This document shows, piece after piece, positions 34,382 to 38,979 of a stretch of 49,763 bases of DNA. The stretch spans positions 1 through 49,763 of the forward strand of contig CANQIX010000004.1 in the NCBI GenBank assembly GCA_947624105.1, written 5' to 3'. This stretch comes from an uncultured Clostridia bacterium (GTDB lineage: Bacteria; Bacillota; Clostridia; Christensenellales; UBA1242). A model generated the notes under the pieces. The model made no database searches. It saw nothing but the letters and a program-made list of their open reading frames with translations, and had not been told where the DNA came from. Every line of letters begins with the position of its first letter. Positions within the stretch are counted from its first letter, which is position 1. A program made the position numbers and the translations under genes.

Positions 34382-35497
34382 TTACTGTTTTTTATTATTG
34401 ATTGCATTTGCTAAATCTCGTTTATATTTGCGATAAATCAAAATTCCTAAACCAATGGATTCAAAAAATGCTGTTCCTGCAAAAAGAAAAATACATATTG
34501 GAGACATTATAAATGCTAAATTTATCATTATACCAATCGCGCTTGGAATTTTTTGCAAGATACTTGAAACAATATACCAAACTATTTGAAAGCCAAATGT
34601 TATAATTGGGACTATAATCATGGCTTTTGCAAGTTTTGAGAGCCTTGCCCATCGTCCCTTTTTTGTTGCTTGCCCTTCAGCCTTTTTCACTTCATTGCCT
34701 ATACTGTTTTGTTGTGATAATTTTTCCTCTTCAAGTTGCTTTATTTTCTCTTTTGTTGCATTTTGTTGGCTGTTTAAAAGCAGCGTTGATGGGGCTTCTT
34801 GAATTAAAAGGCTTATCGCTTCTTTAACGTTTTCCACTCTCTGATCGATTATGTAATCTAAGATGTCTTGTGCATATGGAAGATATTTGAAAGATAATAT
34901 ATCTAAATCCTCAACCTGTTTTCTTAAGGCATAAACCTGTTTGTTGATTTCATTTGTTTTTATTAAGAATGTTTTTGTATATTCTGCTCTTTTTTCTTCA
35001 TATTCTTGTAAAAGTTTGGGATATACTTCAGCGTTATATTTTTCTATTTCTGCGTCTTTAAATTTTGATCTTTTATTTTTGCTTACATTACTAATTATAA
35101 AGTAAGTAATCACAATGAGCACTATAACTAAAAAAAGAATTTTAAAAACAACACTAACACCATCAGTTCCCATAAAAAATACAATAATGCTTGGAGAAAT
35201 AACTATACACGCAATAATTCCTAAGATAATAAAAAGGATAAGCCTACCGAAATTTATTTTTTTAGGTTGTTCACCATCTAGTATTATACTTTTTTCTTTC
35301 GGTATTTTATCTTTCCATTCCGTATCTATAAAAGAAGCAACGTCTTCCGCAGTAACTTCTTTTCCCCAATCAACAGTTGAATCAAAGACATTGTAAACAC
35401 ATTTTGGTTGGAGAAGTTCAAGTTCTTTCTTTAACTCTATTGCTTTTTTTAATTTTTCTTTTTCTTCTTTTAAATTATTACTTCTTTTTTCGCTCAT
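34382..35497 (-). CDS. Coiled-coil membrane protein of unknown function
   Basis: A 371-residue protein I do not recognise. Residues 3-35 are a Lys/Glu-rich helix. Two membrane helices follow at about 80-105 (GRLILFIILGIIACIVIS) and 113-136 (FKILFLVIVLIVITYFI). Residues 140-285 are a long charged coiled coil with ISLLIQEAPSTLLLNSQQ in its middle. Two more membrane helices lie at the C-terminus (AKAMIIVPIITFGFQIVW and NLAFIMSPICIFLFAG). The start at 35497 was chosen over 35506 because AGGTG lies 10 bases before it but only 1 base before the other. It follows the 60-residue repeat peptide and probably forms an operon with it. Base composition is more AT-rich than the ribosomal region. Confidence 0.65.
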   Translation of the reverse strand: MSEKRSNNLKEEKEKLKKAIELKKELELLQPKCVYNVFDSTVDWGKEVTAEDVASFIDTEWKDKIPKEKSIILDGEQPKKINFGRLILFIILGIIACIVISPSIIVFFMGTDGVSVVFKILFLVIVLIVITYFIISNVSKNKRSKFKDAEIEKYNAEVYPKLLQEYEEKRAEYTKTFLIKTNEINKQVYALRKQVEDLDILSFKYLPYAQDILDYIIDQRVENVKEAISLLIQEAPSTLLLNSQQNATKEKIKQLEEEKLSQQNSIGNEVKKAEGQATKKGRWARLSKLAKAMIIVPIITFGFQIVWYIVSSILQKIPSAIGIMINLAFIMSPICIFLFAGTAFFESIGLGILIYRKYKRDLANAINNKKQ

Positions 35498-35513
35498 ACG
35501 CACCATTCACCTG

Positions 35514-37876: not shown

Positions 37877-38758
37877 TCACAAAACTAAATTTTCGCTGTT
37901 TTTTACAAATTTTTGCCCATATTCAAAACTTGTTCTTATCGATTTAGCGCTTATTTTTTCACAGTCTATACCATCTGCAATCACCTCGTTTGCCTTAATT
38001 TTTTCGCAACACAAATGGTGGCAAAACACCTCTTCTGTCGCGGTCAAATTTTTCAATCGTAGATTTCTTCCTTTTAGCCGTGTCGCCTTAATTGAAAGTG
38101 TTGGATCATCGATGTCGAAGTCTAAAATTGTGTCATCTTTGAATCTCAATGTGTTTGTCGCGACATCAAGTTTATCTTTGCACTCTTCAAGTGAATAATA
38201 GGTGGTTGTTTTCCAACAATCTGGGTAGCGCTTGTTATATTCTTCGTCCGCTCTATTTCTAAACACCATCGCTTTAGCATAAAAACTCGAGTATCCCATT
38301 ATGCCTGCCCATTTTATAAATCTCCCCAAAAGCACCTTATCTTCGTTTAAGTCTATTATCTTTTTGAAGTCCCTTAGCGTGCCAAATTCACGCATTGATG
38401 CCGGCGTTACTCTGTAAATTACATCGCCTTCAAAGTTGCAAGCATAAAAGCCATCTATATTGAATCGGTTGCAGAGGATTCTTAGCCCATCAAAAAATCC
38501 ATAAGGCGAAATTTGGCAACAGTTAATTAGCATTTTGTAGGTGTGCAGAACCTCCTTGGCCTTGTCAAAAACATACAAATTGAAGGTCATTGTGTTTGTA
38601 AATGCGCTGTTTCCTTTTTTAATAAATGTTTGCAAATTCAAAAAATTGGTGCTATTTGTATATTTTTCGTCAAAAATTGCGCAACCGTGCTCACTAAAAT
38701 TGTCGATGTAATAATTTTTGTATTCAAGTGGAACAAACGTTTTTCCTTCTATATTCAT
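37877..38758 (-). CDS. Unrecognised protein under SAM-I riboswitch control
   Basis: A 293-residue protein I cannot assign to a family. It shows no signal peptide and no membrane helix. The N-terminal 100 residues are mixed (FVPLEYKNYYIDNFSEHG; YKMLINCCQISPYGFFDGL). The middle has LGRFIKWAGIMGYSSFYAK. The C-terminal part, from about residue 205, reads like short stacked beta turns (DPTLSIKATRLKGRNLRLKN, then CEKIKANEVIADGIDCEKI). Nine to ten cysteines include HHLCCEK. The start at 38758 follows AAGGAG by nine bases; an ATG at 38794 is inside the terminator. The riboswitch predicts expression when SAM is low, so a role in methionine, cysteine or SAM supply is expected but not visible in the sequence. 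Confidence 0.75.
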   Translation of the reverse strand: MNIEGKTFVPLEYKNYYIDNFSEHGCAIFDEKYTNSTNFLNLQTFIKKGNSAFTNTMTFNLYVFDKAKEVLHTYKMLINCCQISPYGFFDGLRILCNRFNIDGFYACNFEGDVIYRVTPASMREFGTLRDFKKIIDLNEDKVLLGRFIKWAGIMGYSSFYAKAMVFRNRADEEYNKRYPDCWKTTTYYSLEECKDKLDVATNTLRFKDDTILDFDIDDPTLSIKATRLKGRNLRLKNLTATEEVFCHHLCCEKIKANEVIADGIDCEKISAKSIRTSFEYGQKFVKNSENLVL

Positions 38759-38777
38759 ACCCTTAATCTCCTTACAA

Positions 38778-38812
38778 CAAAAAAATAACTCCACAATTTC
38801 TATGCGGAGTTA
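38778..38812 (-). terminator. Riboswitch-controlled terminator
   Basis: TAACTCC (38786-38792) and GGAGTTA (38806-38812) form the base of a stem, extended by two pairs past one mismatch; the T-run lies at 38778-38785. It ends a few bases before the ribosome binding site. Its 5' arm (38800-38808) can instead pair with the 3' side of riboswitch helix P1 (38830-38838): CTATGTGGA against TCCGCATAG, nine pairs including one G-U. That is an antiterminator. Confidence 0.85.
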
Positions 38813-38831
38813 AATTTTCTATATTTTCGTC

Positions 38832-38932
38832 CACATAGTCTTGGCATTTTGCCAATCCCTCGTTACCACCTTACCCCTAAGGCAGGTTGGTCGAACTTCA
38901 TAGAGAGGGTCTCTCAGTTCCGTCTTTATGTG
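38832..38932 (-). ncRNA. SAM-I (S-box) riboswitch aptamer
   Basis: Reading left, four helices are ordered as in SAM-I. P1 is CACATA/TATGTG (38927-38932 with 38832-38837). P2 is GAACT/AGTTC (38916-38920 with 38893-38897) with a kink-turn-like CTGA...TATGA and an inner GAGAG/CTCTC hairpin. P3 is closed by ACC...GGT with CCTTA-GGGG-TAAGG. P4 is TTGGC/GCCAA (38841-38855). The core has CAACC...AAGGTGGTAA, close to the canonical CAACC...GGTGCTAA. The P2 loop CCCT (38906-38909) can pair with AGGG in J3/4 (38857-38860), replacing the usual CTGG/CCAG pseudoknot. Terminator and antiterminator follow, predicting an OFF switch. Confidence 0.83.
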
Positions 38933-38950
38933 TTATTTAATTGTGTTTCC

Positions 38951-38979
38951 ATTATACAAAAATTGTTATTGCAAGTCAA
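38951..38979 (-). promoter_or_regulatory. Promoter of the SAM-riboswitch gene
   Basis: TTGACT (38974-38979), 17-base spacer, TATAAT (38951-38956), reading left; transcription should begin near 38944, about 185 bases before the ATG. Confidence 0.88.

Follow-up and report, generated by a model that had tools for sequence, protein, structure and literature searches.

The window, that is, the whole stretch of 49,763 nucleotides that was analysed, holds a SAM-I (S-box) riboswitch with a complete transcription attenuator upstream of an orphan gene, OrfA. Sequence comparison indicates that this leader is a member of a tightly conserved SAM-I subtype, a point that goes beyond the initial annotation, and that the OrfA family is a new and conserved SAM riboswitch target. 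A SAM-I riboswitch is usually taken to signal housekeeping of methionine, cysteine or SAM; the subtype described here is conserved and heads a fast-diverging orphan family, and one of the operons opens with a SAM-lyase-like gene. Our joint reading, to which we assign a probability of about one half, combines a conserved SAM-I transcription-off switch, an accessory low-SAM module and proteins that would derive from a SAM-lyase/PII-like fold. If confirmed, the subtype would give access to a novel SAM-dependent response and perhaps also to a novel branch of SAM-lyase-like proteins, and the leader is a ready test of the signal to which these genes respond.

Anatomy of the OrfA leader

OrfA encodes 293 residues on the minus strand (37877..38758), and its leader lies on the same strand. 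Searches of this strand with SAM-clan covariance models returned Rfam SAM (RF00162) at 38934-38830 with 50.8 bits (E = 7.7e-9, model positions 1-108), above the gathering score of 44.4 bits; this bears out the four-helix SAM-I-type aptamer (38830..38934) that the initial annotation had proposed. Comparison with the Rfam consensus also revealed a kink-turn motif. R1, a covariance model built from six OrfA leaders, covers 38830-38945 (the window leader is part of its training set). Both strands of the proposed pseudoknot, CCCT in the P2 loop (38909-38906) and AGGG in J3/4 (38860-38857), are read directly in the sequence.

The remaining elements claimed for the leader are also in place. A sigma-70-type promoter, TTGACT-17-TATAAT (38951..38979, minus strand), agrees with the consensus at 11 of 12 positions and was the top of 6 sites in a promoter scan; at its lower threshold, 5.2 sites would be expected. 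Exactly at the coordinates given previously, the P1 3' strand CTATGTGGA (38838-38830), which is also the antiterminator 5' strand, can form 9 pairs with TCCGCATAG (38808-38800), which overlaps the terminator 5' arm. The intrinsic terminator itself (stem-loop at 38786..38812, followed by seven T) precedes the ribosome binding site AAGGAG (38768..38773), which lies 9 nt before the ATG (38758). The terminator scan found one terminator against 1.1 expected from shuffles, so its position weighs more than the count. The 186-nt leader has a folding energy of -52.2 kcal/mol (z = -3.93), and none of 200 shuffles was as low. As in RF00162 expression platforms, P1 and the antiterminator are mutually exclusive and the terminator lies downstream.

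In S-boxes, SAM stabilises P1, the terminator forms and the gene is off. We infer that the OrfA leader binds SAM, and, because of this established behaviour and the attenuator anatomy, control is expected to run in the same direction, the leader most likely being a SAM-off attenuator. With SAM bound, P1 would keep its 3' strand, the terminator would form and no OrfA would be made; when SAM is scarce, the P1 3' strand would pair with the terminator 5' arm, and OrfA (elsewhere OrfB-OrfA) would be made.

Ordinary SAM boxes and the OrfA leader subtype

In the genome that contains the window (50 contigs, 958,864 bases), two SAM matches were found, namely the OrfA leader and one upstream of a gene that we take, by eye, to be metK. 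Across 112 genomes of the genus, a SAM search with strict filters, under which weak matches are lost, gave matches in 63 genomes (58 above the cut-off) at 67 places. We examined 64 of these, leaving aside both places in the window's genome and a G087 place at the end of a contig. The SAM box stood directly before metK in 58 cases and before metK with one or two ORFs between in four; the remaining two were a box cut by a contig end and one that heads another gene (in G020). Together with the metK box of the window's genome, these neighbourhoods make metK essentially the usual target of SAM-I in the genus.

Several side observations concern the metK boxes and one other leader. At four loci (L014, L020, L031 and L034) an ORF intervenes between SAM box and metK; by eye it is presumably an N-formylglutamate amidohydrolase, and two genomes carry an extra small ORF before it. 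In the window's genome, a Cas2 gene (PF09827, 62 bits; L001 380-700) precedes the SAM box of metK, and the stretch between the two looks repeat-like by eye and may be a CRISPR array. Another locus (L004 3693-3861) has a T-box-like leader of 53.5 bits (cut-off 93; the match is cut by the locus end) ahead of an ORF that by eye we assume to encode seryl-tRNA synthetase.

The box that heads another gene in G020 (L112, contig C5; 38.4 bits) lies at a contig end, ahead of a gene of 313 residues; G084, G087 and G104 carry copies with 99-100% identity. Beyond this gene, G020 has an HTH-like ORF (below cut-off) and an integrase-like ORF (PF13102, above cut-off). The same SAM box occurs in G087 (C6:78087-78177, 53.7 bits) after an OrfA-like gene. 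Where the 313-residue gene lies at contig ends in G020, G084, G087 and G104, exactly 127, 77, 77 and 55 bases, respectively, are shared with the end on the OrfA side in G087, and the shared stretches all stop at the same base, as at an assembly branch. An assignment of the G087 box to metK was rejected, since the same box precedes the integrase-associated gene in other genomes. There are thus hints that SAM boxes may travel with mobile DNA in the genus.

The subtype stands well apart from these boxes. In the 112 genus genomes, R1 found eight places with at least 121.6 bits in seven genomes (G000, G023, G081, G087, G112, G115 and, twice, G121), and the next best place scored 47.1 bits. Six of the seven genomes had contributed to R1; G121 (128.2 bits) lies outside the training set, as does a further subtype leader in the Lapin-005 bin72 MAG (138.7 bits), which brings the subtype to eight genomes, the window's included, and nine leader copies. 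A DNA pattern scan of genome contigs gave nine loci, eight of them the subtype; the ninth, in Flavobacteriales (L076), lies inside a long ORF, scores 16.8 bits with R1 and was dismissed as chance. Among 297 genomes of the order, the leader pattern was present in the window's genome only.

Five other subtype leaders score below the Rfam cut-offs, two against SAM (44.1 and 43.7 bits) and three against SAM-I/IV (37.4, 33.5 and 32.5 bits). Such scores, and the departure of the subtype from the consensus, are what one might see if the aptamer were a decayed copy of a metK leader, blind to SAM, with only the terminator dampening a stray gene. We consider this very improbable in view of how well the structure is kept: in eight distinct leaders the aptamer pairs checked are formed in 207 of 208 cells and a common 8-column antiterminator helix in 63 of 63, and identity among the leaders (83-97%) is no lower than among the metK aptamers of six of the subtype-carrying genomes (76-93%). 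The P2 loop-J3/4 pseudoknot typical of RF00162 is paired in 31 of 32 cells of the eight leaders, its outer pair being C-G in the window and U-A in six leaders; in G121 the two outer positions do not pair.

Covariation in the aptamer is almost silent (77 of 500 shuffles attain the observed score in the eight leaders) because the aptamer pairs hardly vary. The expression platform is more telling for conservation. In all eight leaders the P1 3' strand can form 8 to 11 antiterminator pairs with the terminator 5' arm, and all eight have a terminator-like hairpin with a T-rich tail. One antiterminator pair shows a compensatory change from U-A to G-C, in two leaders, with a score attained by 20 of 500 shuffles; in a control with the partner slid by +2 columns, 61% of cells were paired and one such change was still seen.

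Genes and neighbourhoods of the subtype operons

Searches of Pfam and NCBIfam with OrfA gave weak unrelated rows only and matched no family, in keeping with the initial impression that the protein is none of the usual SAM-I targets; a clear match to an unrelated family, which would have spoken against a role in the regulon, was likewise looked for in these searches and not found. Neither OrfA nor its frequent operon partner OrfB gave a credible match in Pfam, NCBIfam or PADLOC, and no known Met, Cys or SAM gene family was matched by either. Relatives of OrfA occur in eight of the 112 genus genomes, the window's included, and in Lapin-005. None was found in a sample of 296 other genomes of the order, and among 321 sampled genomes of the class OrfA was found in the window's genome only; one further match (G455, 21.4 bits) involves the C-terminal repeats only and was not counted. 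Scans of genome contigs and of viral contigs with single proteins found no relatives; the genome contigs nevertheless contain relatives, which the pattern scan brought to light, so such protein scans are insensitive here.

The subtype leader precedes OrfA or its operon in seven of the eight copies with readable upstream DNA; the copy in G119 has its start cut by a contig end. The exception is in G114, where an N-terminal OrfA fragment, matched over 58 residues, lies at a contig end and has no SAM match in its upstream DNA. Its leader (L042 1501-1730) contains a promoter-like sequence by eye, and the fragment continues at the contig end into what we take to be a DNA-methylase-like motif. The aptamer thus accompanies all but one of the readable homologues, a check that the initial annotation had asked for, and the proposal that the gene is a new member of the SAM regulon is well supported as far as regulation is concerned; what the protein does we infer in the next section.

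Six OrfA copies that were compared are 35-60% identical, with changes concentrated at third codon positions. The subtype genes therefore look protein-coding, and they appear to diverge faster than the leader (83-97%). Cysteine is abundant in OrfA, at 3.1-4.3% in six counted copies against 1.6% in window ORFs longer than 150 residues. Conserved Cys-containing repeats, recognised from the alignment and the cysteine content, occupy residues about 214-285 (37904..38119, minus strand) and look beta-solenoid-like by eye.

Subtype operons often hold OrfB as a second gene, which the initial annotation had not included. It has about 155 residues and was found in four of the 112 genus genomes (five copies) and in Lapin-005, every copy behind the leader. 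It was found neither in the window's genome nor in the 321 class genomes, a sample that contained no known carrier. The layout is leader-OrfA in the window, leader-OrfB-OrfA in G023, G112, G115 and Lapin-005, and leader-small ORF-OrfA in G081. G087 has the leader followed by the OrfA-like gene, whose N-terminus is FtsK-gamma-like (E = 0.001, below cut-off). G121 has leader-Orf0-OrfB-OrfC, and OrfA was not found there; two of its contigs, C25 and C31 (L069, L070), encode identical proteins over several kb together with the leader and operon, which would reflect a duplication or an assembly effect.

The flanks of the operons mostly differ between genomes. Exceptions are an HTH gene near three loci and one gene common to the window and G023: window positions 34382-35506, about 2.4 kb beyond OrfA, are 41% identical to L062 3908-5275, directly upstream of the G023 leader. 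In G081 and G087 (L066, L065), two large related repeat lipoprotein-like genes, InlB-like by eye and 38-68% identical, adjoin the leader.

Sporadic and diverging genes (six OrfA copies, at the identities given above) behind a better-conserved leader would also be expected of a mobile defence or counter-defence unit, in which SAM-lyase-like proteins released at low SAM would starve restriction or answer SAM-degrading phages. Phage SAM lyases do counter restriction-modification, according to one study (PMC7877911), and OrfC of G121 is a 31% identical relative of the 313-residue gene that lies beside an integrase-like ORF in G020. Searches of defence and mobile-element collections, however, speak against this interpretation, which we hold to be improbable: seven operon proteins scanned with PADLOC gave no credible match (one Cas12b row, E = 0.03, was taken as chance), and searches turned up no relatives for Orf0 or OrfB in phage records, for OrfA or OrfB in plasmid records, or for OrfA, Orf0 or the leader pattern in viral contigs. 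A viral-contig match to OrfB (L071) is weak, with an E-value relative to candidate stretches only, and was set aside; no single listed ORF spans it, and the SAM leader was not found there. Around the window gene, no integrase was noticed among the listed ORFs.

SAM-lyase likeness, proposed function and known systems

The G121 gene that comes first after the leader, Orf0, scores 22.0 bits (E = 1.7e-4) with the S-AdoMet lyase family PF23780, below the family cut-off of 28; the positive control, T3 SAMase, scored 143 bits. In the PF23780 search of the 112 genus genomes Orf0 was the best match (E = 2.8e-5 per genome), the sole other match had E = 0.03, and there was none in the window's genome. 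The Orf0 match was found on the two G121 contigs with the same DNA and runs a few residues beyond the stop codon. The same residues also match a PHROG named SAM-dependent methyltransferase (E = 0.004). That the only plausible SAM-lyase relative in the genus would sit behind a SAM riboswitch seems hard to put down to chance, weak as the score alone is. The family model gave no row up to E = 10 with ten OrfA and OrfB proteins, and none up to E = 1 with the G121 OrfB and the G087 OrfA-like protein. When solved structures were searched by sequence, no SAM lyase came up for Orf0, OrfB or OrfA, and the T3 SAMase control found itself.

We also compared the three protein families with one another at the profile level. 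The hhalign probabilities for pairs of OrfA, OrfB and Orf0 are individually poor (0.2-1.2), and the scores were attained by 31 of 100 shuffles for OrfA-OrfB, 1 of 100 for OrfB-Orf0 and 11 of 100 for OrfA-Orf0. The three alignments agree in register, which only 1 of 100 column-shuffled triples does within three positions, in a test designed with the alignments already in view. A T3-family profile falls in the same register on Orf0 (2 of 100 shuffles as high) and on OrfA (6 of 100); on OrfB it falls in a different place (23 of 100). We discarded a MAFFT alignment of Orf0 and OrfB, which conflicts with the register of the profiles. Taken together, the profile alignments, each of them weak, hint that OrfA and OrfB share the SAM-lyase fold.

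In the common register, which has weak scores and takes in OrfA residues 78-116 (38411..38527, minus strand), a glutamine of T3 SAMase is matched by Q in Orf0 and in three of five OrfB proteins and is missing from OrfA; the profile alignments behind this are weak. Two papers describe the roles of B-loop Q104 and T-loop E69 in the Svi3-3 SAM lyase (PMC7877911, PMC12255297). We assume that the aligned T3 glutamine is the B-loop residue equivalent to Q104, and we would guess that a G-L-x-x-x-E motif of OrfB is the counterpart of E69. OrfA residues 78-116 may tentatively be regarded as a SAM-lyase/PII-like part that lacks the B-loop glutamine, and OrfA would therefore be at most a non-catalytic member.

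Direct SAM-lyase evidence being confined to Orf0, one may ask whether the riboswitch is truly SAM-responsive and OrfA and OrfB are accessories of sulfur metabolism, handling cysteine or methionine and unrelated to SAM lyases, a role presumed for S-box targets elsewhere that lack an assignment. We find this somewhat unlikely. The cysteine content of OrfA agrees with it, and a regulon survey (PMC3766115) placed the novel genes under SAM riboswitches in the metabolism or transport of Cys/Met; here, however, no family of either kind was credibly matched, and sporadic occurrence (eight of 112 genomes) with mostly different flanks is unlike core metabolism. The best SAM-lyase match of the genus, moreover, sits behind a leader of the subtype.

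Under the reading that we prefer, an accessory low-SAM module behind a SAM-off switch, the operon family is, so far, sporadic in one genus of small-genome bacteria and one further MAG. Its proteins would probably derive from a SAM-lyase/PII-like fold and bind or act on SAM-related ligands or SAM synthetase. OrfB and Orf0 are possibly lyase-type enzymes, and OrfA would be a partner devoid of catalysis whose tail consists of Cys-containing repeats. In our view, OrfA and OrfB most likely have SAM-derived ligands that they handle or sense, or else they have SAM synthetase as their target; the latter is, in one report, what T3 SAMase acts on (PMC8406200).

If a lyase were made only when SAM is low, it would deplete SAM further, which is self-reinforcing and odd for simple homeostasis; such a switch would suit conflict or dormancy better than housekeeping. 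It is conceivable, if doubtful, that an accessory and possibly mobile module has its SAM-lyase-like genes under a SAM-off riboswitch in just this way: a drop in SAM, through starvation or a phage SAMase, would turn the operon on, and SAM would be held low or its use rewired. If true, a SAM-sensing RNA would be serving genetic conflict instead of methionine housekeeping.

Precedents in the literature concern other targets. In C. difficile, SAM-I precedes methionine and SAM genes only, according to a review (PMC11477304), and another paper (PMC8190616) names SAM-I in its reference list only. Titles and abstract beginnings in the open-licence literature contained, among the matches listed, no SAM riboswitch controlling a SAM lyase, and those on SAM riboswitches together with mobile elements, restriction or defence, or phage-encoded or integrative genes contained, among the matches listed, nothing comparable.

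With the phage SAM lyases (PF23780; T3 SAMase, Svi3-3) and the CRISPR-associated SAM-AMP lyases, the operon proteins have in common the weak family match of Orf0 and an alignable alpha2/B-loop segment, in which Orf0 and three of five OrfB proteins have the presumed B-loop glutamine in register; they differ in that Orf0 is below the cut-off and OrfA lacks the glutamine. With SAM-I (RF00162), the leader shares the P1-P4 layout, the P2 loop-J3/4 pseudoknot, the conserved core and the terminator/antiterminator platform, whereas it belongs to a tight subtype, five other members of which are below the Rfam cut-off, and heads an orphan protein family instead of Met, Cys or SAM genes. The metK S-boxes of the genus have the same aptamer class and reside in the same genomes, but R1 separates the two clearly, with at most 47.1 bits for places outside the subtype and at least 121.6 bits for those within it.
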